From IMG/VR virus record IMGVR_UViG_3300030060_003508, positions 8,247 to 36,413 of that record: DNA of 28,167 nucleotides. One strand, 5' to 3'. Below are positions 3,147 through 25,427 of the stretch, one piece after another. The notes beneath the pieces were generated by a model. It was not told where the DNA came from. It saw only the letters and a list, made by a program, of their open reading frames with translations, and searched no databases. The translations under genes and the position numbers were made by a program. The DNA is from a virus. The first letter of the stretch is position 1; each line of letters starts with the position of its first letter.

Positions 3147-3565
3147 ATGATGTTTCGTTCTATAACACCAAAACCGTAGTTGATCCGACCGGAAATCTAT
3201 GTCCCATCGAGTCATCGAGAGATGTTCCCTTTGATATTAAGAGAATTTTTTATGTGTACGGTGTAAGTGATAAAGATACTAGAGGTCAACATGCACATTA
3301 CAAGACAGAACAACTTCTAATTTGTTTGTCTGGTAAGGTTGAAGTTGTGTGTAAGGACGGTCTTAAAGAATCTAGATTTTTGTTGGAGTCTCCTCAACAG
3401 ACTTTGTACATACCAGAAATGATTTGGGATGAACAGGTTTATAGGACAGAAGACTCTGTTCTTTTGGTCCTGTCGAGTACACTGTACGACCCATCTGATT
3501 ACATTCATGATTGGGATCAGTTCAAACGACTGAAAGAAACAACAAATGAAAATTTTAATACCTGA
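3128..3565 (+). CDS. Sugar 3,4-ketoisomerase, FdtA/QdtA (WxcM-like cupin)
   Basis: 145 residues, the normal length for FdtA/QdtA. The cupin signature RGQHAH (residues 52-57) followed by EQLLICLSGKVEV is the characteristic active-site strand; the two histidines correspond to the catalytic histidines of this family. The family converts dTDP-4-keto-6-deoxyglucose to the 3-keto isomer before C3 amination. Its coding region overlaps the end of the aminotransferase gene, with AAGGAAAG as ribosome binding site, and the two proteins are probably made in coordinated amounts. The stop overlaps the next start by 20 bases. The exact stereochemistry of the product (galacto or gluco) cannot be told by eye. 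Confidence 0.87.
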   Translation: MPNKNVNDVSFYNTKTVVDPTGNLCPIESSRDVPFDIKRIFYVYGVSDKDTRGQHAHYKTEQLLICLSGKVEVVCKDGLKESRFLLESPQQTLYIPEMIWDEQVYRTEDSVLLVLSSTLYDPSDYIHDWDQFKRLKETTNENFNT

Positions 3566-9779: not shown

Positions 9780-9796
9780 TATGAGGATAAAATAGT

Positions 9797-10396
9797 ATGA
9801 AAAAAACATTAATTATTTGCGGGTGGTTTGAACAGGGTGGTTCATATTACGAGGCAGTATCGGGCAAAAAACTGGATAACTTTGATAATATCATAGGATT
9901 TGAAGCAGAAAAAGATTTTAACATAGAAAAAGAACTTTCTTCACTCCCCGAATCAGTGCGGAATAAAACAGAATTATACAATAAGGCGGTTTGGGTGAAT
10001 GATGATGAAATCGTATTCTATGATATGGGTAAAGAATCATCTTCTGTTTTATCTAATAAACTAACCGGCGAACAAGGACTTGATCCATATAAAGTTGAAG
10101 CAATTGATTTTCCTAAATTTTTAGAAAAATTTGATAAAGAAAATTATGAACTTTACATTCAAATGAATATTGAAGGTTCTGAATTTGAAATATTAGATAA
10201 AATGTTTGAGTCTAAAACTTTTGAAAAAGTAAATATCTTGCAATTAATACTAGACAACCACACAAACATTAAAGGCAAGGAAAATTATTTTAAGGAAAAG
10301 GTATCTCAAAATAGAACAAAGTTGAAAAAGTATTTTACAGAAAGTTCTAGGCCGCTCTCGGGTAACCCTGAAGATTTTCTTTATACAAAAATGTGA
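9797..10396 (+). CDS. FkbM-family methyltransferase
   Basis: 199 residues. The SAM-binding first strand is degenerate (LIICGWFEQGGSY), then FEAEKDF (35-41) for the acidic residue after strand 2 and YIQMNIEGSEFEIL (120-133), the KxDxEGaE-type motif of FkbM. Asp is replaced by Asn in that motif (MNIEGSE), a substitution worth noting. The gene is separated from its neighbours by short gaps (17 and 9 bases), unlike most of the cassette, and has GAGGA 12 bases before the ATG. It is among the most AT-rich genes here. Probable sugar O-methyltransferase; a non-catalytic relative cannot be excluded. Confidence 0.62.
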   Translation: MKKTLIICGWFEQGGSYYEAVSGKKLDNFDNIIGFEAEKDFNIEKELSSLPESVRNKTELYNKAVWVNDDEIVFYDMGKESSSVLSNKLTGEQGLDPYKVEAIDFPKFLEKFDKENYELYIQMNIEGSEFEILDKMFESKTFEKVNILQLILDNHTNIKGKENYFKEKVSQNRTKLKKYFTESSRPLSGNPEDFLYTKM

Positions 10397-10405
10397 GGTG
10401 ATTTT

Positions 10406-11236
10406 TTGTTAGTTATTGATAAACAAACGAGAGGTAGACATGGTAATAAGGTTTTCCATTTCAACACTCTCATGCAATTGTCCAGTATTTTAAATCAAGA
10501 GTGTTCTACGGATCATTGGGATGCTTACGAGTTCTTTGAAGAGACATGTAAACTAAATTCAAAAATAGTCGGTGATGAAATACCACCAAAGGATTTGATT
10601 TATAATAATGAAACAGAGTTACGAGACAAGTATTCGACTGGAGACTGGAAGTTAAATACCTACTCCTTATGTGGACCGTTCTTTCGAATTACAAAAAAGG
10701 ATCCTAGAGAGTTTTTGAAGTTAAAAGAAGTCGTTGACTTGAATCATAAAGATCAAGTTTCGGTTGGTATCCATATCAGAGGTGGAGATACCAGAGGCGC
10801 AGACGGTATGAATTGTAGAGAAATTCATCCACCCGAGTATTATATCAATGCAATTGATTTTGTTCTAGAGGAATACAATAATCATGTTGTTTTTTATCTT
10901 TGTACTGATGACCCAGATCCAAACTTCCCGTCGTATCAAGAAACTCTCAATCACCTTCTATCTAAAAATGTAACCCTATATCATGATACTTCAAATCATT
11001 ACATGAGAGATTTTTCCATACTAACTGAGTGTGATGTTTTGATTTCAGGTTCTAGTACTTTTGCTACTGCCGCTGGAATAATGGGAAAGAATAAAAAAAT
11101 TATTCACAGTAAAGAATTTGTCGAACAGTTTAAAGAAAGTGATCAAGAATGGTATAGTAGTTTTGGTAATGGGATGTTTTTTCATGATATGAATCACATT
11201 ACAAGTGACTACTACAATGTATGGAAACTCATATGA
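10406..11236 (+). CDS. GT11-like fucosyltransferase, second copy
   Basis: 276 residues from a TTG start; GAGGTG five bases upstream supports it, and the family motif begins ten residues later, so the TTG is credible. Motifs: RGRHGNKVFHFN (9-20), equivalent to GxLGNQ; VGIHIRGGDTRG (120-131), the HxRxGD motif with the two residues after Arg conserved better than in the copy at 5005-5697; FYLCTDD near 163; SGSSTFATAAG near 215. Likely uses a GDP-sugar. The stop overlaps the epimerase start (ATGA). Divergence from the first copy suggests a different acceptor or separate acquisition. Confidence 0.82.
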   Translation: MLVIDKQTRGRHGNKVFHFNTLMQLSSILNQECSTDHWDAYEFFEETCKLNSKIVGDEIPPKDLIYNNETELRDKYSTGDWKLNTYSLCGPFFRITKKDPREFLKLKEVVDLNHKDQVSVGIHIRGGDTRGADGMNCREIHPPEYYINAIDFVLEEYNNHVVFYLCTDDPDPNFPSYQETLNHLLSKNVTLYHDTSNHYMRDFSILTECDVLISGSSTFATAAGIMGKNKKIIHSKEFVEQFKESDQEWYSSFGNGMFFHDMNHITSDYYNVWKLI

Positions 11237-12162
11237 AACAAAATATATTAGTAACTGGTGGGGCCGGATTTATTGGGATTAATCTGGTAAACGATCTATT
11301 GAATACAACTAATTTTAGTGTTACGGTTGTTGATCGGAGTGATGTAAACATAAAGAGGTTGAAGGAATCCATATCTTCAGGTCATGAAAAATTGACGATT
11401 GTGAATGTGGACTATGATGATTATGACATGCAGGATCATTTCGATTCGGTTGTACATCTTGCCGCTGTTCCTCGCGTTGGATTTTCGGTTGAGAATCCTT
11501 CTTACACAACAGACGAAAACATTTCAAAACTCGTAAGATTTTTAGAGAGAGGAAAGGACACGTTTGGAAAATTTATATTCGCTTCCTCCTCTTCTGTTTA
11601 TGGTGATGTTCAGAGTATGACACCAGAAACTCATACCCTAAATCCAAAATCTCCTTATGCACTACAGAAAAAAACTGGAGAAGAGTTTGTGGAGATGTTC
11701 TCCAAACTATATGGACTGAACACTGTTTCCTTGAGATTTTTTACTGTCTTTGGTCCAAACCAATATGTTGATGATGCTTATGCCACAGTGATCGCTAAAT
11801 GGATGAATCACATCAAAAAGAATGAACCTCTTGTTTTAGAGGGAGATGGATCACAGGTTAGAGACTTCACCTACATTGATAATGTGGTTGAGGGAATTAA
11901 AATTTTCATATGTTCTGATTTCAAATACTGTGGTGATCGTTTTAACTTGGGCAACAGTTCACAGACATCTCTCAACGAACTCATAAGTTGGTTTGAAACT
12001 AAAACAGATTTCAAAATAAATAAAGTGGAACCTCGATCCGGTGACGTTTTCCGAACTCATGCGGACATTTCTAAAATGCGAGACCTTGGTTACTTTCCAA
12101 CTGTGGGTGTACATGAGGGATTAGAAAAAACTTGGAAGTGGAATATGGAAGGACAAGTATGA
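11233..12162 (+). CDS. NAD-dependent UDP-sugar epimerase (extended SDR, GalE/WbpP type)
   Basis: 309 residues from ATG 11233 (ATGA). Rossmann motif TGGAGFIG (8-15), VVHLAA (73-78), the catalytic SSSSVYG strand (about 118-124) and YALQK with Tyr142 and Lys146 are all present, so the enzyme should be active. DFTYIDNVVEG and the closing pattern SGDVFRTHADISKMRDLGY are typical of WbpP/TviC/GalE-type UDP-sugar 4-epimerases. Substrate is probably UDP-GlcNAc, UDP-Glc or a uronate; the active-site residue deciding this was not assigned. A LegB-type dehydratase is a less likely alternative. Length is normal. Confidence 0.87.
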   Translation: MKQNILVTGGAGFIGINLVNDLLNTTNFSVTVVDRSDVNIKRLKESISSGHEKLTIVNVDYDDYDMQDHFDSVVHLAAVPRVGFSVENPSYTTDENISKLVRFLERGKDTFGKFIFASSSSVYGDVQSMTPETHTLNPKSPYALQKKTGEEFVEMFSKLYGLNTVSLRFFTVFGPNQYVDDAYATVIAKWMNHIKKNEPLVLEGDGSQVRDFTYIDNVVEGIKIFICSDFKYCGDRFNLGNSSQTSLNELISWFETKTDFKINKVEPRSGDVFRTHADISKMRDLGYFPTVGVHEGLEKTWKWNMEGQV

Positions 12163-12869
12163 AAATTTTAAGTTACGATACTGATCGGTACTATTTTGCT
12201 GATTTGGTTGGAAGTCTATATGATGTTGACCTGACTGAACTAGATAACGAAGATCAGAAAACAAATCTTACCTTGGGTAATGATACTAAGACGGCTTTTC
12301 ATAAAAAGTTTTATGAACGTCTAGATGCCGATGGTGGTTGGCCAGAATTCACCAACCTATACCAAGCGTTTGTTCGTGAGGTGATATTCCCTATGTTTGA
12401 AGACGACGAACTTCTATATCAGACTTACCCTGGCATCCGATTTTGTAGGCCAGGCGCTAAGGCTGTTTATAGGTGGCACTCTGATGGAGACAATCATCAT
12501 CGACACCCACTCGGTGAGATTAACATCTTTCTCCCGTTGACCAAGTGTTTTGGTAATAATAGTATCTGGATTGAGAGTCTTCCTGGCTTGGGTGACTTCG
12601 CACCCGCAAATCTAGAGTATGGTGAATTTGTGATGGGGTATCTTAATCAGTGCCGACATGGTAACATGGACAATGACACGGACATCACTAGAGTCAGTTT
12701 TGACTTCAGGGTCATGCCTGGTTTTGCATACGACCCAGAATCAAACTTAGCAAGTTGTACCACCAAACAAAGATTTGCCATCGGTGAGTATTATGATATA
12801 ATGTCGAGAGATGAAACCCCAGATACATTTGACCCAATTGAGAATGCAAAGTTAGGATCAGCATGTTGA
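12159..12869 (+). CDS. Fe(II)/2-oxoglutarate oxygenase, StrG-like
   Basis: 236 residues from ATG 12159, supported by GGAAGGA upstream and the ATGA junction; an upstream in-frame ATG at 12132 lies in the epimerase gene and is rejected. WHSDGD supplies His107 and Asp109, CRHGN the distal His167 and TRVSFDFR Arg178, the complete facial triad plus 2-oxoglutarate arginine. The layout resembles the StrG-type oxygenases of aminoglycoside and surface-sugar clusters. It lies between a sugar epimerase and an aminotransferase, so the substrate is plausibly a nucleotide sugar or a glycan residue. Confidence 0.78.
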   Translation: MKILSYDTDRYYFADLVGSLYDVDLTELDNEDQKTNLTLGNDTKTAFHKKFYERLDADGGWPEFTNLYQAFVREVIFPMFEDDELLYQTYPGIRFCRPGAKAVYRWHSDGDNHHRHPLGEINIFLPLTKCFGNNSIWIESLPGLGDFAPANLEYGEFVMGYLNQCRHGNMDNDTDITRVSFDFRVMPGFAYDPESNLASCTTKQRFAIGEYYDIMSRDETPDTFDPIENAKLGSAC

Positions 12870-13537
12870 TAAGCCCTTTAGAATATGATGCACGACTACT
12901 CGACTTCATGATGAAAAAATATAACTGTACCGACCCGTGGGACGTTGTTGATGTGTTCGAAAAGACTGTTGCTAGTTATGCTGGTAGTAAGTACGGCGTT
13001 GCCGTTGATAATTGCACTGACGCTATGTTTCTTTGCCTTAAGTATCTCAAGGCAGAGGGAGAGGTCACAGTCCCTCGTAGAACTTATGTCTCAGTTCCAT
13101 GTACGGTGATCCACGCGGGTTGTACTGTCAAGTTTGATGACATCGAGTGGAGCGGAGCATATGCCTTAGATCCATTCCCCGTCTATGATTCTGCAACTAG
13201 AATGACGATGGGAATGTATGTGCCTGGTTCCTACTACTGTCTTTCTTTCCATAGACGGAAGCATGTTCCAATTGGCAAAGGTGGGATGATCCTGACAGAT
13301 GATGAAGAGGCATATGAGTGGTTTAAGTCTGTTCGTTATGAGGGTAGACACCTTGATAGATTGTACAAGGATGACTACTTTGAGAACATCGGATGGAATA
13401 TGTACATGCCACCAGAACAGGCAGCGAGAGGTTTGTTTCTGTTTGATGAGATAGAGGATGTGAATGAGGATCTTGAGAGTTCTGGTATTCACAAGGACTT
13501 GTCTGAGTTTCCAATATATGAAAGAGAAAATAAATGA
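12863..13537 (+). CDS. DegT/DnrJ-type aminotransferase, truncated
   Basis: 224 residues where the family has 360-400. The N-terminal PLP domain is recognisable: FEKTVASYAGSKYGVAVDNCTDA, then VPRRTYVSVP, DSAT with Asp109, and SFHRRKHVPIGKGG with Lys133 as the expected Schiff-base lysine. The chain ends shortly after the PPEQAARGLFLFDEI helix, so the C-terminal small domain, present in the copy at 2196-3146, is missing. The next gene, an AT-rich methyltransferase, starts at the four-base overlap with its stop. Either this is a naturally short subfamily or the end was replaced when that gene arrived. Activity is uncertain. Confidence 0.75.
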   Translation: MLISPLEYDARLLDFMMKKYNCTDPWDVVDVFEKTVASYAGSKYGVAVDNCTDAMFLCLKYLKAEGEVTVPRRTYVSVPCTVIHAGCTVKFDDIEWSGAYALDPFPVYDSATRMTMGMYVPGSYYCLSFHRRKHVPIGKGGMILTDDEEAYEWFKSVRYEGRHLDRLYKDDYFENIGWNMYMPPEQAARGLFLFDEIEDVNEDLESSGIHKDLSEFPIYERENK

Positions 13538-14211
13538 CTAAATTTTATGAAGATTTGTATGAAAAATTATACAGTGATCATGGGTATCATTCTAGCGAAG
13601 AGTTAAAATCAACACACTATCCTTCTTTTTTTACTGGATGTTTAAATCCATCGGGTATGGATTATACCACTGTTTTGGATATTGGGTGTTCCACCGGTAT
13701 TGGTATAAAATCTTTTTTCGAACCTTTGGGTAAAAAATGTGAGGGTATAGATGTTTCTAAAACGGCTATACACAAAGCAACTGAACGTGGAGTGTCCGCA
13801 CAAGTCGCTTCGATAATAGACATTCCTTTCGATGACAACTCGTTTGACTTAGTATGTTCAACTGATGTAATTGAACACTTAAGGCCGGAAGATCAAGAAA
13901 AGGCACATAGAGAATGTTTTAGAACATCAAAGAAATATGTTGCACATAAAATAGCAAACACACCAGAGGGAAATTTATTTGCTGGTGAAAAATTACATTT
14001 GACATGTTGGTCACATGAAAAGTGGATGGAGTTTTTTGAATCTTTAAATCTTGAAAATTGGAAACTTATCTATACAATAACTCCAGAAGTTTGGGATAAA
14101 ATTGGTCATGATGTTTATGGTCCTAATGGAAGCGTATTTCGATCGGAACCATGTCCTTATGATCATTGGATTGAACACAACACTGTAGTTGTTTTTGAAA
14201 AGACGAGTTGA
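13534..14211 (+). CDS. Class I SAM-dependent methyltransferase (Methyltransf_11-like)
   Basis: 225 residues. Motif I VLDIGCSTGIG (47-57), the post-I GIDVSKTAI (71-79), and FDLVCSTDVIEHL (104-116) form a textbook class I methyltransferase core. A WSHEKWMEFF helix follows at about 155-165, as in many sugar and small-molecule methyltransferases. It is the first gene of the stretch leading into the nonulosonic acid module and is AT-rich compared with the aminotransferase before it. Possible role: O- or N-methylation of the nonulosonate or another sugar; substrate unknown. Confidence 0.82.
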   Translation: MTKFYEDLYEKLYSDHGYHSSEELKSTHYPSFFTGCLNPSGMDYTTVLDIGCSTGIGIKSFFEPLGKKCEGIDVSKTAIHKATERGVSAQVASIIDIPFDDNSFDLVCSTDVIEHLRPEDQEKAHRECFRTSKKYVAHKIANTPEGNLFAGEKLHLTCWSHEKWMEFFESLNLENWKLIYTITPEVWDKIGHDVYGPNGSVFRSEPCPYDHWIEHNTVVVFEKTS

Positions 14212-14213
14212 TT

Positions 14214-15032
14214 ATGACTACTAAAATTATCGCAGAGATAGGTATTAATCATAATGGTGACATTGATATTGCAAAGAAATTAATTGATGTTGCTTCTATC
14301 TCCGGATGTGATTATGTTAAGTTTCAGAAAAGAACTCCTGATATTTGTGTTCCCGAGGACCAGAAGTCTAAGATGAGAACCACGCCGTGGGGCGAAATAA
14401 CATATCTTGAGTACAAGTGGAAACTTGAATTTGGACATGACGAGTATGATGAATTGTTTTCATACGCAGACAAAAAAAATATTGGGATGATGGCTTCTGT
14501 TTGGGATGTTGATTCTGTTGATTTTATGAGGAATTACACTGGAGTCATGAAGATCCCCTCTGCACTAATTACCAATCATGAATTAGTTTCTTATGCAAGA
14601 GAAAACTCTGACTATCTTATGATATCCACTGGTATGTCATTGGAGGATGAAATCGAAGTCGCAGTTGAGAAATCACGCCCGGATCTTATTTTTCATACGA
14701 ACTCTACCTACCCATCGCCAACAGATGAACTCAACTTACGTTACATCTCTTGGTTAGCTAACAAGTATCCACACGCAGAGATTGGTTATAGTGGACATGA
14801 GTATGGACTCACCACAACATTTGCTGCTGTTGCTATGGGTGCGTCTTGGGTTGAACGACACATCACCTTAGACCGAACCATGTTTGGATCAGATCAAGTC
14901 GCATCAGTAGAACCGATTGGTGTGATGAAACTTGTTCAGGGTATTCGTGACATTGATAAAGCGATGGGGACAGGCGGACCACGAAAACTTTTTGATTCGG
15001 AACTTACCAAAAGAGAGTCGCTGAGAGGTTGA
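14214..15032 (+). CDS. neuB: NeuB-like nonulosonic (sialic) acid synthase, lacking the SAF domain
   Basis: 272 residues from ATG 14214 (a TTG at 14208 is also in frame). NeuB condenses PEP with ManNAc or a 2,4-diacetamido hexose to make the nine-carbon acid. TIM-barrel motifs are present: IAEIGINHNGD at the N-terminus, YVKFQKR near 36-42, KIPSA, NSTYPSP, GYSGHEYG and ERHITLDR followed by FGSDQVASVEP. In typical NeuB the last block reads GxDHxxS; here His is Gln. NeuB proteins are normally about 345 residues because a C-terminal antifreeze-like SAF domain closes the partner's active site. This protein stops at the end of the barrel, so that domain is absent. Confidence 0.9.
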   Translation: MTTKIIAEIGINHNGDIDIAKKLIDVASISGCDYVKFQKRTPDICVPEDQKSKMRTTPWGEITYLEYKWKLEFGHDEYDELFSYADKKNIGMMASVWDVDSVDFMRNYTGVMKIPSALITNHELVSYARENSDYLMISTGMSLEDEIEVAVEKSRPDLIFHTNSTYPSPTDELNLRYISWLANKYPHAEIGYSGHEYGLTTTFAAVAMGASWVERHITLDRTMFGSDQVASVEPIGVMKLVQGIRDIDKAMGTGGPRKLFDSELTKRESLRG

Positions 15033-15033
15033 T

Positions 15034-15666
15034 ATGAAAACTGTAGCGATCATATTAGCAAGGGGTGGTAGCAAAGGAGTTCCACATAAAAATATTAGAG
15101 ACATAGCAGGAAAACCTTTAATATCACACTCTATTGAAACTGCGCTTGATTCTTTTGTTGATTCCGTTTGGGTTAGCACTGATTGCCCAGATATAGGACA
15201 TGTATCTGAAATGTTTGGGGCAAGTGTACTAGAAAGACCGAGAGAGTTATCTACAGATGAGTCAACAAGTGAGTCTGCTCTTTTACATTTTAGTCAACAT
15301 GTAGATTTTGATAAGATGGTTTTTATTCAACCAACATCTCCATTGTTACAACCACAACACATAAATGGTGGTCTAGAATTAAGCAATCAATACGACTCTG
15401 TTTTTAGTGCATATAAAGAACACTTTCTTCCTAGATGGTCTTTAGATTTAAATCCTGTTAACTTTGATAATTATAACAGAGACAGAAGACAGGATAGAGA
15501 AGATAACTATGTAGAAAATGGTGCGTTTTATATTACAACAAAAACCATGTTACAAAATACTGGTGTTCGAGTGAGTGGTAATATTGGAGTCTACGAAATG
15601 AGTCCATTTGAAAGTTTTCAAATAGATACCGTAGAAGATTTTGTTTTTATTGAGAGACTGATGTGA
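15034..15666 (+). CDS. neuA: CMP-nonulosonate (acylneuraminate) cytidylyltransferase
   Basis: 210 residues. The CTP-binding N-terminus IILARGGSKGVPHKNI, then AGKPLI, VSTDCPDI, FIQPTSPLL and the block ENGAFYI plus FQIDTVEDF near the C-terminus are the standard CMP-sialate/CMP-legionaminate synthetase motifs. It activates the NeuB product as the CMP-sugar used by sialyltransferases. AGAGG before the ATG and a one-base gap from neuB show tight coupling. CMP-Kdo synthetase is excluded by the ENGAFY block. Which nonulosonate it prefers (neuraminic, legionaminic, pseudaminic) cannot be told here. Confidence 0.9.
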   Translation: MKTVAIILARGGSKGVPHKNIRDIAGKPLISHSIETALDSFVDSVWVSTDCPDIGHVSEMFGASVLERPRELSTDESTSESALLHFSQHVDFDKMVFIQPTSPLLQPQHINGGLELSNQYDSVFSAYKEHFLPRWSLDLNPVNFDNYNRDRRQDREDNYVENGAFYITTKTMLQNTGVRVSGNIGVYEMSPFESFQIDTVEDFVFIERLM

Positions 15667-15962
15667 TAATATTCGTTGATATAGATAGCACCATTTGCAA
15701 AACAAATGAAACTGATTATGAAAATGCAGAATCATTCTCTAAAAGAATAGAAAAGATAAATCGTTTGTATGACGAGGGAAATACAATTGTGTATTGGACT
15801 GCTCGTGGTACTGGAAGTGGTCTTGACTGGAGAGAAGTAACAGAAAAACAATTTGAAGAATGGGGTGTAAAATATCACGAACTTCGATTTGGAAAACCTG
15901 TTTATGATTTGTTTATCGACGATAAGAATATAAATTCTGAGGAGTATTTTCGGTCGCTATGA
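15663..15962 (+). CDS. Minimal HAD-family phosphatase
   Basis: Only 99 residues, GTG start in a GTGA junction with neuA. All four HAD motifs are present: FVDIDSTIC with Asp6 nucleophile and Asp8 acid/base, YWTARG with Thr46, Lys78 in FGKPVYD, and FIDDKN with Asp86 and Asp87. There is no room for a cap domain, so this is a capless (C0) enzyme of the kind annotated as capsule biosynthesis phosphatase. Its position between neuA and the 2-epimerase suggests dephosphorylation of a sugar phosphate in the nonulosonate route, but a different sugar phosphate is equally possible. Confidence 0.8.
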   Translation: MIIFVDIDSTICKTNETDYENAESFSKRIEKINRLYDEGNTIVYWTARGTGSGLDWREVTEKQFEEWGVKYHELRFGKPVYDLFIDDKNINSEEYFRSL

Positions 15963-16942
15963 TTTTATTATGTTACGGCACTCGACCCGAGTGGATAAAA
16001 ATTAAACCTCTGATCAAAGCCTTCGAGGATAAAGTTCCTTATCGACTGTTGTTTACCGGACAACACGCAGATATTTCTGGTGGTTGGTATCATGATAAGT
16101 TGAAAATTACCGAAGGTACGAATCGTCTAGACTCGATCTTTTCCTCCGTGATGAACAATATTAACTTCGATGGAGTAAATAATGTTCTGGTACAGGGTGA
16201 CACAGCTACTTGTCTTGCAGTTGGTCTATCTGCCTTCAACCACAAGGTTCCTGTGATTCATCTGGAAGCAGGACTCCGAACTTATGATTTGAATCACCCA
16301 TACCCCGAAGAGGGGTATCGACAGATGCTCTCTCGTATCACCGACATACATCTTTGTCCCACAAAGACTGCGAAGGTTCATTTGCTTCGTGACTCGGTTG
16401 GTGGTGATATTCATGTTGTCGGCAATACGGTTTTGGACAATCTAGTTGGTATTGAAACTTCCTACGGCGATGAAGTTCTAGTAACAATTCATCGTCGAGA
16501 GAACCACCATATCATCGACGAGTGGATGGGAGAACTTGATAAACTAGATGAAAAGATCACAGTGATTCGACATCCGAATCCTGTGGTGATGGATGCAGTC
16601 GATAAATTAAAGAATGTAAATGTGATCGATCCTCTGCCTCATGACGAGATGATCAAACGGATCGCAAACTGTAAGTTTCTGATTACGGATAGTGGCGGAC
16701 TACAGGAAGAGGGTTCGTTCTTCAACAAGAAAATTATCATTTGTCGGGAGACAACAGAACGACCAGAGGTATTGGAACATCATGGTGTTCTTTGTACAGA
16801 TCCGAAAAACTTAGGCGGTTTAGTTGAGTCTATAAAAAACCAATACATATTAGACAAACCATGCCCCTTCGGTGATGGTAAAACTTCCCAGAAGATAATG
16901 AAAATAATAATGAAAAATAACAGGAGTGAAAATGTCAACTAA
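15959..16942 (+). CDS. UDP-GlcNAc 2-epimerase (WecB/NeuC family)
   Basis: 327 residues, slightly short for the family (about 370). Motifs: LLCYGTRPEWIKIKPL at the N-terminus, LVQGDTATCLAVGLSAF, HLEAGLRTYDLNHPYPEE, VTIHRREN and LITDSGGLQEE, which hold the conserved Asp, Glu and His residues of the active site. It either epimerises UDP-GlcNAc to UDP-ManNAc (WecB) or hydrolyses it to free ManNAc (NeuC, or LegG with a diamino sugar). Next to neuB and neuA the NeuC role fits best, since NeuB needs free ManNAc. Its reading frame overlaps the next gene by 11 bases. Confidence 0.88.
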   Translation: MILLCYGTRPEWIKIKPLIKAFEDKVPYRLLFTGQHADISGGWYHDKLKITEGTNRLDSIFSSVMNNINFDGVNNVLVQGDTATCLAVGLSAFNHKVPVIHLEAGLRTYDLNHPYPEEGYRQMLSRITDIHLCPTKTAKVHLLRDSVGGDIHVVGNTVLDNLVGIETSYGDEVLVTIHRRENHHIIDEWMGELDKLDEKITVIRHPNPVVMDAVDKLKNVNVIDPLPHDEMIKRIANCKFLITDSGGLQEEGSFFNKKIIICRETTERPEVLEHHGVLCTDPKNLGGLVESIKNQYILDKPCPFGDGKTSQKIMKIIMKNNRSENVN

Positions 16943-18236
16943 ACCAACTATTACACTTTGTATGATTGTTAAGGACGAACACCATTGTATCGAACGGTGT
17001 TTGTCATCTTTGTACAAATACATCGATCGGTATGATATTACTGATACCGGATCAACGGATGGCACTCAAGAAATTATTAAAAAGTTTTTTGATGATAAGG
17101 GTATCCCCGGTGAAGTCCACCAATCAGACTGGAAAGGATTTGGTAAATCTAGAACCGAGTCTTTACAAAATGCAAAAAAGTCTGGTGTTGATTATGCTTG
17201 GGTGATCGATGCTGATGATACTTTAGAAGGTGATTTCACTGAGTCTTTGGAATTTATGGCTAAGACAAAATTTAGTTCTTATAGTCTTAGAATAACCAGA
17301 GGTGAAAATTTCACATGGTGGAGAAACCAAATCTTCAAGTTAGCAGACGACTGGAAGTATGTTGGTATCCTCCATGAGTATGCAGACGTTCCTGATCGAG
17401 AAAGTAAAGAGATGGCTCAGCTTCCGGGTAATTATGGTATTCATGCTAGAACCGAAGGTGCTAGAAATGTTGATGTTACTCCTGAACAAAAATACAGGAA
17501 AGATGCTGAATTACTTGAAGATGCTATCACCAATCCTAAAAACCCTGACTACGATCCCCACAATGATAGATATCATTTTTATCTAGCTCAGAGTTACTTT
17601 GATTGTCATGATTATCGTAATGCGATGAAGTGGTATGATAAGAGAGCTGCTATGGGAAATTGGCAAGAAGAAGTTTACTATTCTGTATTCAGATCTGCTA
17701 TGTGTTCTGGTCTTTTGAATGAACCCTTCGAGACAACTACATTGAAGTTTATGGAAGCTTGGAATTATAGACCAAATAGAGCCGAACCTTTACATCAACT
17801 GTCTAGAGTTTTTAGGTTGAACAATAAACCGAGACTCGCTTACTTGTATGCGACAATGGGATCAAAACTTCCCTTTCCTTCGGAAGATATTTTATTCATT
17901 GCTGGTGACATCTATGAATGGCAAATGTTAGATGAGGTTTCTGCTACTGCTTTTTATGTTGGTCAGTTAGATGAGGGTCTACATGCAACTAATGTTCTCC
18001 TTACTAAATTGGATAAGATTCCTGAGTCGGAACATGATAGGATTCGATCCAATAAAAATATGTACGAAGACGCAATAAAACAACGTGAACAAGCAATATC
18101 AAACCATTCTCAAAAGAGAAAAGAGTTACTAGAGAAGTATAATCTCGAAAATAAAGTGAAAACTGATAACAAACAGAAGAGTTATGCTAAGGCTAGAAAA
18201 GAAAGAAATAAGAAAAAGAAAAAAGCTAAAGCATAA
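16932..18236 (+). CDS. GT2 glycosyltransferase with TPR-like C-terminal half and polybasic tail
   Basis: 434 residues from ATG 16932, fixed by AGGAG five bases upstream; an in-frame GTG at 16926 lies within that site. N-terminal GT2 domain (1-170): TLCMIVKDEHHCIERCL, ITDTGSTDGT and WVIDADDTLEGD with the metal DAD. Residues about 200-380 form repeated helical pairs such as YHFYLAQSYFDCHDYRNAMKWYDKR, the TPR pattern. The last 40 residues are very Lys/Arg-rich, ending in a run of basic residues. It is the last gene of the cassette. TPR-fused GT2 proteins are known in phages and giant viruses; the tail could bind nucleic acid or an acidic partner. Confidence 0.82.
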   Translation: MSTKPTITLCMIVKDEHHCIERCLSSLYKYIDRYDITDTGSTDGTQEIIKKFFDDKGIPGEVHQSDWKGFGKSRTESLQNAKKSGVDYAWVIDADDTLEGDFTESLEFMAKTKFSSYSLRITRGENFTWWRNQIFKLADDWKYVGILHEYADVPDRESKEMAQLPGNYGIHARTEGARNVDVTPEQKYRKDAELLEDAITNPKNPDYDPHNDRYHFYLAQSYFDCHDYRNAMKWYDKRAAMGNWQEEVYYSVFRSAMCSGLLNEPFETTTLKFMEAWNYRPNRAEPLHQLSRVFRLNNKPRLAYLYATMGSKLPFPSEDILFIAGDIYEWQMLDEVSATAFYVGQLDEGLHATNVLLTKLDKIPESEHDRIRSNKNMYEDAIKQREQAISNHSQKRKELLEKYNLENKVKTDNKQKSYAKARKERNKKKKKAKA

Positions 18237-19440: not shown

Positions 19441-19752
19441 GTGAAAATACGAACACATACATTTATACTATATGATCCAGATACAGGTGAAGTACAAGAT
19501 AGATTTGACGCATATTGTAAAGCGGTGGATCACTTGCCAGATGATAATCAAACACCGAGAATTGTACTAAAACATGTGGATGGAATATTGGATAATAATT
19601 TATACTTTAACAATAGTGTAGATATTTGTAGAGAAGATTGTTATATTAATCCCACCTCAAAAGATAAACTTAAAATAAAAAAGGGTGCGGAGGAGGAGTT
19701 TGATTTTTTTATGAAAAACGGATACCACAAGACAGGAACAAGTAATGACTAG
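19441..19752 (+). CDS. Unknown protein, 103 residues
   Basis: Start taken as GTG 19441, one base after the dut stop, with GGGG about seven bases upstream; an in-frame GTG at 19414 would overlap dut by 26 bases. The sequence starts KIRTHTFILYDPDTGEV, has an acidic middle and a Lys-rich segment (KDKLKIKKGAEEEFDFF) near the end. I recognise no family. It overlaps the next gene by eight bases and is co-transcribed with dut from the promoter at 18820, so an early nucleotide- or DNA-related role is possible but unsupported. Confidence 0.6.
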   Translation: MKIRTHTFILYDPDTGEVQDRFDAYCKAVDHLPDDNQTPRIVLKHVDGILDNNLYFNNSVDICREDCYINPTSKDKLKIKKGAEEEFDFFMKNGYHKTGTSND

Positions 19753-20140
19753 AGATGAACTACTAAAATATCACGACGAACTCTGCACTGCTGCCAGAGA
19801 ATTGATGAACCTTAAGAACCGAGACTATGCTGGAAATGAAGGCACCGAACCATTTGCTAATTTCACACGATGTGAAGCGATGGGTATTTGTGATACCGAG
19901 GCTGGATTCATGGTTCGTGTGACTGACAAGATGAGTCGCTTGAGTTCTTTCCTTCGTTCTGGTAAGATGCACGTTGAAGACGAAAGTTTTTATGACACCA
20001 TCGTGGATGTCATTAATTACATGGTTCTTCTTGGTGCATATGTTAAGGACAAGGAAAACCAAGAAGAGGAACCCACACTGTGGGATAACTTGAATGAGAC
20101 AAATACCTTTGAAGGTACAGTATACACAGAAACTCACTGA
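19745..20140 (+). CDS. Conserved phage protein, Nmad1/DUF1599-like or MazG-like
   Basis: 131 residues. The pattern KNRDYAG, then PFANFTRCEAMGI, GFMVRVTDKMSRLSSFL and ESFYDTIVDVINYMVLL is a helical, acidic layout. It is common in phage proteins annotated as nucleotide modification associated domain 1 (DUF1599), and recalls all-alpha NTP pyrophosphatases in which helix-borne Glu/Asp bind Mg. The last 25 residues are a polar tail. It sits between dUTPase and DNA polymerase, and its stop overlaps the polymerase start by one base, so a nucleotide-pool or base-modification role is likely. The choice between these families is unsettled. Confidence 0.6.
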   Translation: MTRDELLKYHDELCTAARELMNLKNRDYAGNEGTEPFANFTRCEAMGICDTEAGFMVRVTDKMSRLSSFLRSGKMHVEDESFYDTIVDVINYMVLLGAYVKDKENQEEEPTLWDNLNETNTFEGTVYTETH

Positions 20141-22626
20141 TGGATAAACTCTTTTACACAAACGTATCTCGGAGGGGTGATGATATCCTCCTCCGGGGTA
20201 TCAATAACGGGGAATCTTTTTCCCGTAGGGTGAAGTTCAACCCTACTCTTTTTGTCCCGTCGAACAAGGAGAGTAAGTATAAGACTCTGGACGGAACATC
20301 GGTATCACCCGTACACCCCGGTACAATGAGAGAGTGTCGAGAGTTCATTCAAAAGTACACTGGTATTCAGGGGTTTGATGTCTACGGCAACACCGATTAT
20401 ATCTACCAGTTTATCGGCAAGATTCACCCCGGTGAGGTTGAGTACGATTTCTCTCAACTAAAGATTGCCTATATCGATATCGAAACTACATGCGAACTTG
20501 GTTTCCCCAACGTGGACGATCCGCAGGAGGAGATCAATGCAATCACCATGATCATCGGTGACAACCAGTATGTACTTGGTCTTGGTGAGTTTGATGACAT
20601 CGATGGGGCAGAGTGTCATAGATTTTTCCGTGAAGAAGATCTCATTGATAAGTTCCTTGATATCTGGGAACACGAATGTCCCGACATCGTTAGTGGTTGG
20701 AACGTTAGGTTCTTCGATATTCCATATCTCTACAGTAGAATCTCATCAGTCCGTGGAACGTCACAGGCGAAGAGGATGTCTCCGTGGAGGATGGTTCAGG
20801 AGAAGACCATCAATCGAATGAACCGAGAACAGACTGCGTATGATCTTGTTGGTATCTCAACGTTAGACTACTACGAACTGTACTTGACATTTACATACAC
20901 AAACCAAGAATCATATCGACTAGATCATATCGCAAACATTGAACTCGGTGAGAGTAAATTGTCCTACGATGAGTTCGAGAACATGGCAGAGTTCTACAAG
21001 AAAGACTTTGACAAGTTTGTTCGATACAATCACAAAGATACAGAGTTGATTGTTCGACTAGAAGAGAAGATGAAGTTGATGGAACTCGCAGTTGCTCTTG
21101 CCTATTCGGCCAAGGTCAACTTCGTTGATGTGTACTCTCAGGTTCGAACTTGGGATCAGATCATCTACCACTATCTTTCGGAACAGAACATTGTGATTCC
21201 CATGAAGTCTGGCAGCAAGAAGGACGAACAGTATGCCGGTGCATACGTCAAGGATCCAATTGTGGGTCGTCACGAATGGGTTGTCTCTTTTGACTTGAAC
21301 AGTCTGTATCCCCACCTGATCATGCAGTACAACATCAGTCCCGAGACAAAAATTCAAGATGAAAAAGATCATACGATCACCCCGAACTCGATTTTGAATG
21401 GCAAGATTCCCCCCGAAACTAAGTACTCTCTTGCTGCAAACGGAACTTGTTACACCAAAGATCGTCAGGGGTTTCTGCCTGCACTGATGGAGAAGATGTA
21501 CAAAGAACGTAAGATGTACAAGAAGATGATGATCGAAGCTGAAAAGAGAAAACAAGAAAGTCCGGATGATCGGTCTATCGACTTCGAGATCTCTAAGTAC
21601 CACAATTTCCAACAGGTTCGTAAGATTCAATTGAACTCTGCTTATGGTGCGATTGGTAACGAGTGGTTCCGATACTTCGATGTTGGTATGGCCGAAGCTA
21701 TCACCCTGTCCGGTCAGTTGTCTATTCGTTGGATTCAGGAATCGTTGAACAAGTATTTCAACGAGACCTTGGAGACCGATGGGGTAGACTATATCATTGC
21801 GAGTGATACCGACAGTGTTTACATTCGTCTTGGTGATTTGGTTAAGAAGAAGTGTGACACCGATAATGTGGTTGACTACTTGGACGATTACTCCACGAAT
21901 ACTCTGGAACCATTCATCGAAGAGGAATATGGCAAACTAGCAGAACTGATGAACGCATACCAGAACAAGATGGTGATGGGTCGGGAAGTTATTGCTGACT
22001 GTGGTATCTGGACTGCGAAGAAGCGGTACATGTTGAATGTGTGGGACAGTGAAGGTGTTCGTTATAAGAAACCCAAACTCAAGATCATGGGTATCGAAAC
22101 GACTAGAAGTTCTACACCACAAGTGGTTCGTGAATGGTTGAAGAAATCTATCTCTATCATTTTGACCGGAACCGAGTCGGAGATGATTCGATTCGTTGAT
22201 GAGAAGAGGAGAGAGTTCAATGGCTTGGACGTTGAGGATATTGCCTTCCCCCGTGGTGTTAGTAATCTCGACAAGTACCGTGACCACTCCGGCATTTATC
22301 GTAAGAGTACACCTATCGCCGTGAAGGGTGCGTTGATTTACAACCACTTCGTGAAGGAGAAGGGACTGGATCGAAAGTACAATCTGATCAATGATGGTGA
22401 GAAGGTGAAGTTTGTCATGTTGAAGAGACAGAACCCTATCGCTGGACCGAAGGGGGATCAGGTCATCTCCTTTCCAAACAGACTTCCTCTAGAACTTGGA
22501 TTACAGAAATATGTTGATTACGACAAACAGTTTGAGAAGAGTTTTCTTGATCCTCTTACTTCTATACTAGATACTGTTAGGTGGAGAACAGAACAAGTCT
22601 CCACACTTGAAGGGTTATTTTCATGA
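20140..22626 (+). CDS. 43: Family B DNA polymerase, T4 gp43 type
   Basis: 828 residues (T4 has 898). Exonuclease motifs: YIDIETT (111-117, Asp113 and Glu115 at nearly the same positions as T4 Asp112 and Glu114), SGWNVRFFD (185-193), YNHKDTEL (296-303). Polymerase motifs: A SFDLNSLYPHLI (383-394, Asp385), B KIQLNSAYG (495-503), C ASDTDSVYI (554-562, Asp556 and Asp558). All catalytic acids are present, so both activities should be intact. No intein or insertion is seen. The start overlaps the upstream stop (TGATG) with no clear ribosome binding site, indicating translational coupling. Codons are richer in G/C than in most cassette genes. The usual neighbour regA is 19.5 kb upstream. Confidence 0.98.
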   Translation: MDKLFYTNVSRRGDDILLRGINNGESFSRRVKFNPTLFVPSNKESKYKTLDGTSVSPVHPGTMRECREFIQKYTGIQGFDVYGNTDYIYQFIGKIHPGEVEYDFSQLKIAYIDIETTCELGFPNVDDPQEEINAITMIIGDNQYVLGLGEFDDIDGAECHRFFREEDLIDKFLDIWEHECPDIVSGWNVRFFDIPYLYSRISSVRGTSQAKRMSPWRMVQEKTINRMNREQTAYDLVGISTLDYYELYLTFTYTNQESYRLDHIANIELGESKLSYDEFENMAEFYKKDFDKFVRYNHKDTELIVRLEEKMKLMELAVALAYSAKVNFVDVYSQVRTWDQIIYHYLSEQNIVIPMKSGSKKDEQYAGAYVKDPIVGRHEWVVSFDLNSLYPHLIMQYNISPETKIQDEKDHTITPNSILNGKIPPETKYSLAANGTCYTKDRQGFLPALMEKMYKERKMYKKMMIEAEKRKQESPDDRSIDFEISKYHNFQQVRKIQLNSAYGAIGNEWFRYFDVGMAEAITLSGQLSIRWIQESLNKYFNETLETDGVDYIIASDTDSVYIRLGDLVKKKCDTDNVVDYLDDYSTNTLEPFIEEEYGKLAELMNAYQNKMVMGREVIADCGIWTAKKRYMLNVWDSEGVRYKKPKLKIMGIETTRSSTPQVVREWLKKSISIILTGTESEMIRFVDEKRREFNGLDVEDIAFPRGVSNLDKYRDHSGIYRKSTPIAVKGALIYNHFVKEKGLDRKYNLINDGEKVKFVMLKRQNPIAGPKGDQVISFPNRLPLELGLQKYVDYDKQFEKSFLDPLTSILDTVRWRTEQVSTLEGLFS

Positions 22627-24014
22627 TGAAGAACTTAATTATTATACCAACTCTTGATCGATCCGTTGAACTTAACCGGTGCATCGATAGTATTAAAAAG
22701 AACTCTACATGTTCCGACATCGTAGTGGCTGTTGATGTGGATCAGGTAGATAAATTTGACAGACGATCTGATGTCTACTGGAGAATCTTTGATACCAATA
22801 AGACTGCTATTGAAAAGATAAACACAGTAGCAATGGACAACATAGACAAGTATGATTTTATCACATTCGTTGGTGATGATTGTGTTGTCACCACGGAGGA
22901 CTGGGATGGAAAGTTATGTTCTGTCATAGAAAAAGATTTCCATGGCATGGGTATGGTTTCACCGGGTGAACCTGAGTGGGGTAGACAAGACGATCTGCCT
23001 CTACACTGGATGGTAAGTTCTAATATGATTCGTGCCATCGGTTATTTTGTTAACACGATCTTCAACCACAATTATGTGGATAATGATTTACACCAGTACG
23101 CCATGTCAATTCAGTCTTATAGAAAAGTTCGTGATGTGATTGTGGAACATCATCATCCGAATCATGGTAAGTCCGAAGTGGACAAGACCTATGAGATGGG
23201 CGAGAGAACTTGGAAAGATATTGACGAACAGACATACAATGAGTATCTTGTTTCGGAAGATAGAGCCGAACGTTCTAAAAGATTATATCAAGAAAAGTTG
23301 AATAATGACTTGAAGATTCACAATTGTTTTGATACAATATACTGCATAAACCTGAGTCGTAGGTTGGATCGAAGGCAAGAGATGGAACGAAAATTCAAAG
23401 AGGTAGATATGAAAGTTGAATTCTTTGAAGCTATTGATGGTTCCACATTTCCGTCCTTCCATAAACTACAGAGTGATGGTTATTTTGGATCTTTGATGTC
23501 ACACCTTTCTGCCTATAAAAAGTCACTTGATGCTGGTCATGATAAGATCATGGTTATCGAAGATGATCTAAAGGTAAACAAAGATATTCATCGTGCTTGG
23601 TTTGAACTAACCCAACACATTCCTAATGACTGGGGTATGATCTATTTTTCTTATATACCTTTGTCCGAGGATCATCAGATGTGGAACTACAATCTAATTA
23701 ATGATAAGTTTGTTTCTGGTGGTGTGTGTAATGGTGTGTTTGAGGCACAAAATCTTTTTAGTTTGATGGGGTACTGTATCAACGGAAAGATGATGGAAAC
23801 TATTATAGAAACTTATAAAGAAATTGGTCCGACCGAAGAGTTGGACAACATGATTACTTCTAGATTACAGAAGAATGATGAGTATAAAATTTACGCAGTA
23901 TCACCTCAACTGTTTGTTGGTACTGATACTATGTCCGATGGGACGAATACATATTTAGAGGTAGAACAAAGATCTACAGATTCTAGGTGTCTTGAGCATA
24001 ACACATTTATATAA
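22623..24014 (+). CDS. Two-domain glycosyltransferase: GT2-like N-terminus fused to GT25
   Basis: 463 residues. Domain 1 (1-200): LIIIPTLDRS start and FITFVGDDCVVTTEDWD with Asp85-Asp86, related in layout to the first cassette protein (642-1370). Domain 2 (about 235-440): TIYCINLSRRLDRRQEM and FFEAIDGS, then SLMSHLSAYKKSL and IMVIEDDL, the standard motifs of GT25 LPS glycosyltransferases. Both domains keep their acidic motifs, so two transfer reactions by one chain are likely. It is coupled to the polymerase gene by an ATGA overlap. In T4 the DNA beta-glucosyltransferase gene lies near uvsX, but that enzyme is a GT-B protein unrelated to this one. Confidence 0.83.
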   Translation: MMKNLIIIPTLDRSVELNRCIDSIKKNSTCSDIVVAVDVDQVDKFDRRSDVYWRIFDTNKTAIEKINTVAMDNIDKYDFITFVGDDCVVTTEDWDGKLCSVIEKDFHGMGMVSPGEPEWGRQDDLPLHWMVSSNMIRAIGYFVNTIFNHNYVDNDLHQYAMSIQSYRKVRDVIVEHHHPNHGKSEVDKTYEMGERTWKDIDEQTYNEYLVSEDRAERSKRLYQEKLNNDLKIHNCFDTIYCINLSRRLDRRQEMERKFKEVDMKVEFFEAIDGSTFPSFHKLQSDGYFGSLMSHLSAYKKSLDAGHDKIMVIEDDLKVNKDIHRAWFELTQHIPNDWGMIYFSYIPLSEDHQMWNYNLINDKFVSGGVCNGVFEAQNLFSLMGYCINGKMMETIIETYKEIGPTEELDNMITSRLQKNDEYKIYAVSPQLFVGTDTMSDGTNTYLEVEQRSTDSRCLEHNTFI

Positions 24015-24029
24015 AGGAGAATTATTATG
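24013..24029 (+). promoter_or_regulatory. Initiation region matching that of regA (possible RegA target)
   Basis: AAAGGAGAATTATTATG contains the ribosome binding site and start codon of the gene at 24027. It agrees with the regA initiation region (214-230) at 15 of 17 bases. An AU-rich segment joining Shine-Dalgarno and ATG is the type of site RegA binds in T4. Simple convergence on a strong, unstructured initiation site is the alternative. Confidence 0.4.
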
Positions 24030-24359
24030 ACAACAGACGAAAAGAATATTCAAATTGTACGACTTATGAGTGGCGAGGAACTCATTTGTAATCTCACCGT
24101 TGACGGTGATAACTACACCCTCGAAACCCCCTGTATCGTTCTTCCCACGGGACAGAACAATATTGGACTTGCTCCTTGGATTCCCTACGCCGATTACGGT
24201 GGTAAGGTAACTCTGGGTGAGAAGGTTGTTGCCTTTGTTGTTGCACCCCACGAAGATCTTGCGAAGGAATACAAGAGAGTCACGACCGGTGGTCCTGAAC
24301 TCGTCGTTCCTAACAAGGAAGTCGTTGGTGCAATTGGCGGTCCTGTAGGGACCGTATAA
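24027..24359 (+). CDS. Small conserved phage protein, Sm-like fold suspected
   Basis: 110 residues with a strong ribosome binding site (AAAGGAGA). The N-terminus IQIVRLMSGEELICNL followed by a strand pair (NYTLETPCIVL) resembles the Sm1 motif of Sm/LSm proteins, and the rest has further short beta strands (PWIPYADYGGKVTL, KVVAFVVAP). Small proteins of this kind are common near uvsX in marine T4-like phages. RNA binding is an inference from the Sm-like pattern only. A perfect six-base hairpin covers the last codons. It lies 12 bases upstream of uvsX. Confidence 0.6.
   Translation: MTTDEKNIQIVRLMSGEELICNLTVDGDNYTLETPCIVLPTGQNNIGLAPWIPYADYGGKVTLGEKVVAFVVAPHEDLAKEYKRVTTGGPELVVPNKEVVGAIGGPVGTV
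24338..24354 (+). other. Hairpin at the 3' end of the Sm-like gene, before uvsX
   Basis: CGGTCC-TGTAG-GGACCG is a perfect GC-rich six-base stem with a five-base loop, ending three bases before the stop codon. It is followed by TATAATCTGG, not a T-run, so it is unlikely to be a terminator. It may affect mRNA stability or initiation at uvsX (ATG 24372). Confidence 0.4.
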
Positions 24360-24371
24360 TCTGGAGAGAAT

Positions 24372-25427
24372 ATGAGTTTTTTGAAAGACCTGATCAAAGA
24401 ATCAGGAAATGATTATGCAAGTATTGCCGATGATGGCATTGACGGATCAGATGTCCGTGGTTATATTGACACTGGTTCTTATAGCTTCAATGGTTTGGTT
24501 AGCGGAAGTCTACGAGGCGGCATCCCCGACAATAAGATTATTGCTATCGCGGGTGAATCCGCTACTGGCAAGACTTATTTTGCACTCGGTATTGTTCATC
24601 GCTTCCTTCGGGATAATCCTGATGGTGTTGTACTTTATTTCGATACTGAACAAGCGATAACGTCTGACATGATTAGGGACAGGGGCATCGATCCTTCTAG
24701 GATCGGTGTCATGCCTGTCGCTACCGTCGAGGAGTTTCGACATCAGGCCATCACTGTGGTTGACAAGTATCTTGAGCAACCCAAGAGTGAAAAGAAACCA
24801 ATGATGATCGTTCTCGATTCTCTTGGTATGCTTTCCACGGAGAAAGAGATGTCTGATACGGCTGATGGGAAGACTACCCGTGATATGACTCGAGCTCAGA
24901 TCGTCAAGGCCACGTTCCGTGTCCTGACTCTGAAGTTGGGCAAGGCGGGTATTCCTCTCATCATGACCAATCACACATACGATGTTGTGGGATCTATGTT
25001 TCCACAGAAGACTATGGGTGGTGGTTCTGGCCTGAAGTATGCCGCTTCTACCATTGTGTATCTTTCAAAGAAGAAGGTGAAGGAAGGAACCGATGTGATC
25101 GGTAATATCATTCACTGTAAACTCTTCAAGTCTCGACTTACTAAAGAGAATGCAATGGTTGACGTTCTCTTGACTTATGATTCGGGACTACATCCGTACT
25201 ATGGTTTGGTTGACATTGCACTGAAACATGGTATAATCAAGAAGAATTCTACAAGACTAGAATTCCCAGACGGTTCAAAGGCATTTGAAAAGACAGTGTA
25301 CCGAGAACCCGAAAAGTATTTTACACAGGACATTATGGATCAGCTTGAAATTGCTGTTGCGAAAGAGTTCAAGTATGGAAAACCGGAAGAAGAAACTGAA
25401 GTACAAACTGATTCCGTGGGAGAGTGA
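24372..25427 (+). CDS. uvsX: UvsX RecA-like recombinase
   Basis: 351 residues (T4 UvsX 391). Walker A GESATGKT (61-68), Walker [10 protein letters not shown] (144-152) with Asp149, then [16 protein letters not shown] and [10 protein letters not shown] followed by [13 protein letters not shown], all with direct counterparts in T4 UvsX (including the NHTY and MGGG loop-2 segments). It forms presynaptic filaments on ssDNA and drives recombination-dependent replication. The Glu/Asp-rich C-terminal tail is shorter than in T4. GGAG before the ATG supports the start. It precedes gene 41 with one small gene between, as in T4 (uvsX-40-41). Confidence 0.96.

Follow-up and report, generated by a model that had tools for sequence, protein, structure and literature searches.

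Among the closest described counterparts of the phage gene examined here are human COLGALT1 (GLT25D1), Mimivirus R655 and the DNA beta-glucosyltransferase (b-gt) of T4, all glycosyltransferases (GTs). According to one report, COLGALT1 has a catalytic GT25-type C-domain with an EDD metal core and an N-domain that dimerises and is not catalytic (PMC13382579), and in an older study the N-domain DXD of GLT25D1 was required for activity (PMC3244457). The activity of R655 was not assayed in the study concerned (PMC9546862). For phages, a paper on RB69 places the DNA GTs of T4 and RB69 in the GT-B class and describes the interval between the polymerase gene and uvsX as plastic (PMC6024577). The GTs of marine T4-like phages of the kind considered here have been argued, in a paper on Pelagibacter myophages, to act on the host O-chain (PMC7029224). 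Among the papers listed by literature searches, no description was seen of the domain combination presented below, a phrog_14945 domain fused to a GT25 domain.

This combination is encoded in a window of 28,167 nt, which is the whole stretch of DNA analyzed and comes from a 36-kb fragment (IMG/VR record IMGVR_UViG_3300030060_003508, positions 8,247 to 36,413). The reading favored here, with a probability of about 0.5, is that the product is a soluble bifunctional GT-A and GT25 enzyme that would transfer two sugars in succession to an acceptor other than DNA, perhaps a virion protein.

Genomic context and conservation

The two-domain GT described in the initial annotation is present as a 463-aa open reading frame (ORF) at 22623-24014 on the plus strand, recognized from the ORF list and from Pfam and PHROG profiles. 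As claimed there, it is coupled to gene 43 (DNA polymerase; 20140-22626, plus strand; phrog_262, 1071 bits) through an ATGA overlap at 22623-22626 on the same strand, in which the gene 43 TGA (22624-22626) runs over the GT ATG (22623-22625); the same overlap is seen in the relative L002, with the end of gp43 at 1223 and the GT start at 1220. About 9 nt 5′ of the GT start is an AAGGG stretch. It may fairly be inferred that the GT is co-expressed with the polymerase. With at most one mismatch, the promoter motif TATAAATA occurs 46 times in the window, where 48.2 occurrences are expected, a number so close to expectation that the late-promoter search is uninformative. The reported spacing of 4.4 kb from the main cassette is correct, the last cassette-side GT stopping at 18236, 4387 nt away. 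The gene shares the interval with uvsX but is not immediately next to it, as had been stated: a 110-aa ORF (24027-24359, plus strand; phrog_527, E 2e-15), also present in L002, L003 and L004, intervenes before the uvsX-like recombinase (24372-25427, plus strand; phrog_97, E 2e-88).

Whether relatives keep a GT at this site, a question raised with the initial annotation, has a divided answer. The fusion is kept in three close, fragmentary relatives (L002, L003 and L004), and both domains are under purifying selection, with a dN/dS of 0.136 for the gene against L002 and of 0.105 and 0.160 for the two domains. Neither domain occurs between gp43 and uvsX in any of 80 other gp43 loci. The interval is a plastic spot: among the 72 relatives (out of these 80) in which both of its ends are present, its length varies from 3 to 2544 nt. 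The fusion at the gene 43 site is, as sampled here, local to one marine T4-like lineage.

The N-domain and the C-domain

The N-domain (22623-23300, plus strand; residues 1-226) matches the PHROG profile phrog_14945, "glycosyltransferase", at E 7.8e-25, with residues 4-211 on positions 6-207 of 218. It has no Pfam match, and NCBIfam has a name for neither domain. The earlier label GT2-like is right as to a GT, and GT-A type, phrog_14945, is the more exact description, assigned from profile, HMM and fold match. The likeness reported between this domain and the first cassette gene (642-1370, plus strand) holds: the latter also matches phrog_14945 (3.2e-12), pairwise alignment gives 20% identity at E 0.002, and one HMM built from 78 other N-domain homologs recovers both the fusion N-domain (3.7e-45) and the first cassette gene (2e-18), so that the likeness is real. 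A GDD motif (residues 84-86; 22872-22880, plus strand) keeps its G and both D residues in all 12 stand-alone N-only sequences of the alignment, where other polar residues are invariant too. Across the 78 N-type loci, a nucleotide-sugar epimerase gene lies downstream on the same strand at 69, 40 of which have the commonest short overlap, and the neighbors include helicase or primase (36), endolysin (8) and terminase or protease genes (12). A PHROG label of "DNA methyltransferase" for the N-domain was set aside as no evidence, because that profile consists of the N-domain plus a methyltransferase part; the latter matches the cassette gene at 5682-6245, a Methyltransf_24/CmcI-type protein.

The C-domain (23319-23960, plus strand; about residues 233-446) matches Pfam Glyco_transf_25 (PF01755) with 53.6 bits (E 3.5e-14), above the curated cut-off of 24. 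The NLxxRxDR motif of GT25 is present as NLSRRLDR at residues 243-250 and is kept in most C-only sequences of the alignment. Its EDD (residues 313-315; 23559-23567, plus strand) aligns with that of COLGALT1, with DD found in 16 of 16 C-only sequences and E in 14. In a scan of genome contigs, the bacterial GT25 relatives were two weak ones only. The putative metal and nucleotide-sugar motifs are intact in both domains.

Predicted structure

The predicted model of the 463-aa fusion has a pLDDT of 84.4. It was built from a 32-row alignment (the window, L002, L003, L107, 12 of 18 N-only and 16 of 27 C-only sequences), whose rows were picked by trial for correct MAFFT placement, so that their number reflects a choice and not a count; a 48-row alignment misplaced N-only rows onto the C-domain, and a 4-row alignment gave a pLDDT of 37. 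The top PDB match of the model is COLGALT1 (9evj and others; Foldseek E 8.7e-20), for which VIA gives Z 22.5 with 374 residues aligned over 1-443 at 18% identity and an rmsd of 17.9. By domain, the predicted N-domain fold matches GalNAc-T2 (Z 18.8) and has WrtF fucosyltransferase and TarP among its neighbors, and the C-domain fold matches R655 and COLGALT1. At the sequence level, the phage profile A10 matches COLGALT1 in the C-domain only. No GT-B DNA glucosyltransferase is among the 50 VIA-align matches listed.

Split gene pairs in other phages

The same two domain families occur as separate genes in another phage group, of which 11 loci (L232-L242) were retrieved by the C-domain alone. In all 11, an N-type GT lies directly upstream of GT25 with a 4-nt overlap, in the order of the fusion, and the ATGA was read directly in L240. 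The nucleotide-sugar epimerase gene (PF01370, 5e-28; phrog_540, 4.9e-48) comes next after GT25 in 10 of 10 contigs that continue. The N genes of these loci are 50-87% identical to that of L240, and since the loci are mutually related, they may represent one event. In addition, at four Streptomyces-phage loci a GT25-like gene lies just upstream of the N-type GT gene, with a nucleotidyltransferase-like gene downstream (hhalign 94%). Two other candidates were discarded: at L191 the N-type GT and GT25 are 3 kb apart and form no pair, and the megaphage proteins L104/L107, considered as a second fusion, have a blast match to residues 170-441, inside a roughly 1100-aa protein that contains several GT parts, but the N-domain HMM does not recognize this region (E 0.07 and 0.1 when only these two sequences are searched).

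On the favored reading, the gene would be the fused form of two genes, adjacent and overlapping, that belong to a phage glycan module comprising GT-A, GT25 and a nucleotide-sugar epimerase, with fusion, rather than splitting, as the presumed direction of change. The fused gene lies downstream of gene 43 and ahead of the small ORF that precedes uvsX, in a single lineage of marine T4-like phages. The GT-A and GT25 domains would act successively on one acceptor and thereby contribute two of the sugars in a short glycan, the donors probably coming from the phage's own nonulosonate/deoxysugar cassette. That no epimerase gene lies directly behind the fusion counts against this reading.

Candidate acceptors

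The acceptor is most probably something other than DNA, and the best single guess would be a virion protein that receives its sugars in the cytoplasm. None of the 36 window ORFs has a transmembrane-like segment in a search with T4 imm as positive control, so the window shows no envelope-pathway flippase, polymerase or oligosaccharyltransferase; this absence of membrane genes in 28 kb argues weakly for a virion-protein acceptor. Alternatively, once infection is under way the fusion may alter a glycan of the host envelope (LPS or capsule), for instance to exclude superinfecting phages, which is possible although somewhat unlikely. Pfam names PF01755 as a family of LPS biosynthesis proteins, which counts against a virion-protein acceptor; the view of the Pelagibacter myophage paper and the WrtF and TarP fold neighbors point the same way, and expression with the polymerase would suit a surface change soon after infection. 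However, the findings hold no direct pointer to an envelope acceptor, and the transmembrane count speaks against one, though cytoplasmic LPS-core enzymes require no such segment.

Compatible with any acceptor is a different view of the mechanism, in which GT25 alone is catalytic and the N-domain has a structural or dimerizing role. Given that the COLGALT1 N-domain is reported as dimerising and non-catalytic, the phage N-domain could also be a scaffold, but this is unlikely: the invariance of GDD and other polar residues in stand-alone relatives, together with the occurrence of the N-domain without GT25 but with an epimerase at most loci, suggests an activity of its own, and the DXD requirement of GLT25D1 likewise speaks against a scaffold.

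It is improbable that the fusion glycosylates the phage's collagen-like protein as a counterpart of animal collagen glycosylation, an idea to which the COLGALT1-like predicted fold and domain order give rise. In the two fusion-bearing relatives whose sequence reaches far enough (L002/L093 and L004), a collagen-like protein is encoded three genes after gp41 (for the L004 protein, Pfam Collagen E 3.8e-30), compared with only 1 among the 23 further gp43 relatives that extend 2.5 kb or more past gp41 (2 of 24 listed, one being the fusion locus L004). These are, however, two closely related cases only, and no collagen-like gene is within reach at any of 78 N loci or 53 GT25 loci. The Gly-X-Y repeats are nearly lysine-free (0 in L093, 2 in L004), which rules out hydroxylysine as the general acceptor; Thr is frequent in L004 only. 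The COLGALT1 sequence match is limited to the C-domain, and the domains are placed differently. The link to the nearby protein is only suggestive, and it is doubtful that a COLGALT1-like enzyme from a mobile two-gene module decorates it on non-hydroxylysine residues with sugars of the nonulosonate cassette. If true, this would be collagen-type protein glycosylation in a bacteriophage, and the split pair would illustrate the sort of components out of which COLGALT-type enzymes with two domains can arise.

A role of the fusion in glycosylating the bases of phage DNA, like that of T4 b-gt, whose gene occupies the same interval, is very improbable. This interval also holds the RB69 candidate arabinose genes (PMC6024577), the gene overlaps that of the polymerase, helicase or primase genes adjoin the N-domain at 36 loci as counted above, and three far T4-like relatives have a TET/JBP gene. 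Nevertheless, PF00303 (dCMP/dUMP hydroxymethylase type) was found in 0 of 28 records (14 + 14) by a search that does find T4 gp42; the three records positive for Tet_JBP, among 27 searched with that of L003 left out, carry neither domain; all records in both searches are fragments or of uncertain completeness. Gene 42 is absent from the interval here and from the 28 records, the model matches GT-A enzymes, and N-domain relatives adjoin lysis and packaging genes as well. With neither domain in the other 80 gp43 intervals, the earlier hint of DNA glycosylation finds no support, and no DNA-modification role should be read from location between these two genes, gene 43 and uvsX, alone.

Comparison with known systems

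T4 b-gt does lie in the corresponding neighborhood, as had been noted, and is likewise a phage GT between uvsX and gene 43, but it has a GT-B fold (PMC6024577) and adjoins gene 42, which has no equivalent here. R655 (PDB 9crz) matches the C-domain of the fusion only, through its GT25 domain (189 residues at rmsd 2.6, Z 20.7). Like the predicted phage model, COLGALT1 has two GT domains in one chain, in the same order and with an EDD core in the GT25 C-domain, whereas its domains are set differently, as the rmsd of 17.9 indicates, and the phage protein, at 463 aa, has no signal-like hydrophobic stretch. The split module shares both domain families, their order and the gene overlap, but consists of two genes instead of one and is followed by the epimerase gene that the fusion lacks. 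The Streptomyces phages Wofford (gp36-gp35) and TunaTartare (gp77-gp78) also have an N-type GT beside a GT25-like GT, although as separate genes whose order is reversed and which are followed by a nucleotidyltransferase-like gene (PF01467 in Wofford gp34). This phage GT pair is open to study either apart, as two genes, or joined, as the fusion, and the cultured Streptomyces phages offer a bench system for it.

Gene setting and conservation of the site

The gene at 22623-24014 (+) is a real, selected, fused two-domain glycosyltransferase with an architecture like that of human procollagen galactosyltransferase (COLGALT1). Its source virus record, of 36,413 bases, is a fragment of a T4-like phage with the window as its 3' part, in which clamp-loader-like genes (so labelled from reading of the translations) and regA precede a long glycan cassette, followed by dUTPase, gp43, the glycosyltransferase, a 110-aa ORF, UvsX and gp41. 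The nearest named relatives of gp43, the DNA polymerase, are from marine Synechococcus/Prochlorococcus phages (~52%). The two domains proposed in the initial annotation are recovered as a GT25 C-domain above the Pfam cut-off and a phrog_14945 N-domain, and the proposed overlap with gene 43 (20140-22626) is equally evident, the ORF starting within the gene 43 stop as ATGA. The gene had also been placed next to uvsX (24372-25427), which is indeed close by, but the small ORF (24027-24359) intervenes. As had been noted, the N-domain resembles the first cassette gene: an HMM of 78 environmental N-domain relatives matches the window protein at 3.7e-45 and gene 642-1370 at 2e-18. In addition, phrog_2675, labelled 'DNA methyltransferase', matches 22809-23198 and 5598-6197; it apparently combines this N-type glycosyltransferase with a methyltransferase portion, and its label is probably misleading.

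Whether relatives hold the gene at this site has a divided answer. The fusion occurs in three contigs, complete in L002 (79%) and cut at the contig start in L003 (88%) and L004 (91%), and in all three the small ORF and then uvsX come next. Comparison of the window with L002 gives an overall dN/dS of 0.136 (N-domain 0.105, C-domain 0.160), values low enough to place both domains under purifying selection. However, HMM searches of a further 80 gp43 loci (L006-L085; polymerases 47-61% identical, apart from 92% in L006, whose contig ends inside gp43) found the N-domain nowhere and GT25 once, upstream of gp43 in L008. The position of the fusion thus reflects local acquisition into a plastic stretch rather than a conserved feature of the replication block; where both ends of the gp43-uvsX interval are present (72/80), it spans 3 to 2544 nt, and an RB69 paper describes it as highly plastic (PMC6024577). 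Many far T4-like relatives have other inserts in this interval; judged by eye, these include a 178-200-aa 2OG-type hydroxylase-like protein (L041, L045, L048, L049, L054 and further loci up to L084), often accompanied by a thioredoxin-like gene, and ClpP-like genes (L030-L032, L046, L052). UvsX itself is 99% identical between the window and L002, with a dS of 0.17 against 0.55-1.0 for adjoining genes, which hints at recent recombination across uvsX.

Distribution of the two domains

A scan of viral contigs for the N-domain family yielded 353 relatives, the best 80 of which were retained; omitting the fusion loci L110 and L003 left 78 for analysis. Among these 78, an NAD-dependent epimerase gene lies downstream on the same strand in 69, with an identical short overlap in 40 of them; another glycosyltransferase-like gene is nearby in 19, a methyltransferase-like gene (by eye) intervenes in six, and GT25 intervenes in one, L174. 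In four Streptomyces-phage loci, a GT25-like gene is immediately upstream of the N-type gene (profile-profile probability 94%). The wider gene company of the 78 comprises helicase/primase (36), terminase/protease (12), endolysin (8) or none of these (22), the 36 representing mostly one lineage, since a single gene order is common to them. Because the module travels, its neighbouring genes tell little about its target. In 38 of the 78 there is also a gene cluster including two direct matches to a 131-aa window protein (19745-20140), which has a sub-threshold match to DUF1599 ('nucleotide modification associated domain 1') and is common in fusion-less relatives.

The C-domain scan, with five query rows including the GT25 of L174, retrieved 56 loci. 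In 11 of them (L232-L242), an N-type gene is immediately upstream of GT25 on the same strand with a 4-nt overlap, and an epimerase comes next in all ten that continue; beyond these and the fusion loci, only L191 has an N-type gene, 3 kb off. All 11 come from one group of related phages, and ten are on contigs other than that of the query row (L240 being the contig of L174). As retrieval was by the C-domain alone, the pairing is unselected. Two enzymes that one phage group encodes by overlapping genes, and another as a single polypeptide, most probably work on a common product.

Candidate acceptors

The cassette favours a glycan, containing NeuB, a cytidylyltransferase and a UDP-GlcNAc 2-epimerase, together with aminotransferases, FdtA, methyltransferases and several glycosyltransferase families. 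Its roughly two dozen nonulosonate/deoxysugar genes (642-18236) immediately follow regA; one, a GT2 glycosyltransferase (16926-18236), has relatives in six gp43 loci (L006, L008, L013, L020, L023, L025) and is weakly similar to the peptide S-glycosyltransferase SunS. No transmembrane-like segment was detected in the 36 window ORFs, with T4 imm as control, which suggests a soluble process of stepwise glycosylation, for example of a virion protein. According to a citation in PMC12619734, mycobacteriophage virions are glycosylated on their capsid and tail-tube subunits. Alternatively, host LPS may be the target.

A COLGALT-like action on collagen-type protein seems improbable. It would fit the collagen-like protein encoded three genes past gp41 in L002/L093 and L004, a position the window stops short of and one where such a gene occurs in 1 of the 23 remaining gp43 relatives whose sequence runs on for 2.5 kb or more past gp41. 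But the repeats are nearly lysine-free, the two cases are close kin, and no collagen-like gene lies near the other modules (0/78 of the N-domain loci analysed from the best 80 of 353; 0/53 GT25 loci).

DNA glycosylation, at which the initial annotation had hinted, is unsupported, though still conceivable: thymidylate-synthase-type hydroxymethylase was found in 0/14 and 0/14 records by a search that recovered T4 gp42, and Tet_JBP occurs in 3/27 records, all far relatives without either domain. These Tet_JBP dioxygenases (E 2e-26 to 5e-28), from T4-like relatives of 165-174 kb, lie at 162613-163002 in G011, 172524-172964 in G013 and ~17187-17624 of L048 (record G012), where the gene comes just after gp41; they suggest that DNA bases undergo oxidation of the TET type in this branch.

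Predicted fold and comparison with known glycosyltransferases

The structure model, built from 32 rows, has a pLDDT of 84.4 and a pTM of 0.76, with weak stretches at 179-193 and 361-368. Domain by domain, the matches for the C-domain include mimivirus R655 (rmsd 2.6 over 189 residues, Z 20.7) and bacterial GT25 beta-1,4-galactosyltransferases (rmsd 3.4 over 174 residues, Z 18.0); those for the N-domain include polypeptide GalNAc-transferases (rmsd 3.0 over 212 residues, Z 18.8) and the WrtF fucosyltransferase (rmsd 2.5 over 194 residues, Z 18.3). The GDD of the N-domain is kept in 12/12 stand-alone phage rows and the DD of the C-domain in 16/16, so both domains are expected to be active.

For the whole protein, the top solved-structure match is COLGALT1 (Foldseek E 8.7e-20), aligned by VIA-align with Z 22.5 over 374 residues within 1-443 at 18% identity; the large rmsd of 17.9 is read as domains that match singly but would be differently set. 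By sequence profile, COLGALT1 is matched in the C-domain only (E ~4e-28), EDD aligning on EDD. According to a review, the C-domain of COLGALT1, with its Glu-Asp-Asp metal core, is the active one, and the N-domain mediates dimerization (PMC13382579); an earlier mutagenesis study had found an N-domain DXD to be required too (PMC3244457). The phage protein is a new variant assembled from known families.
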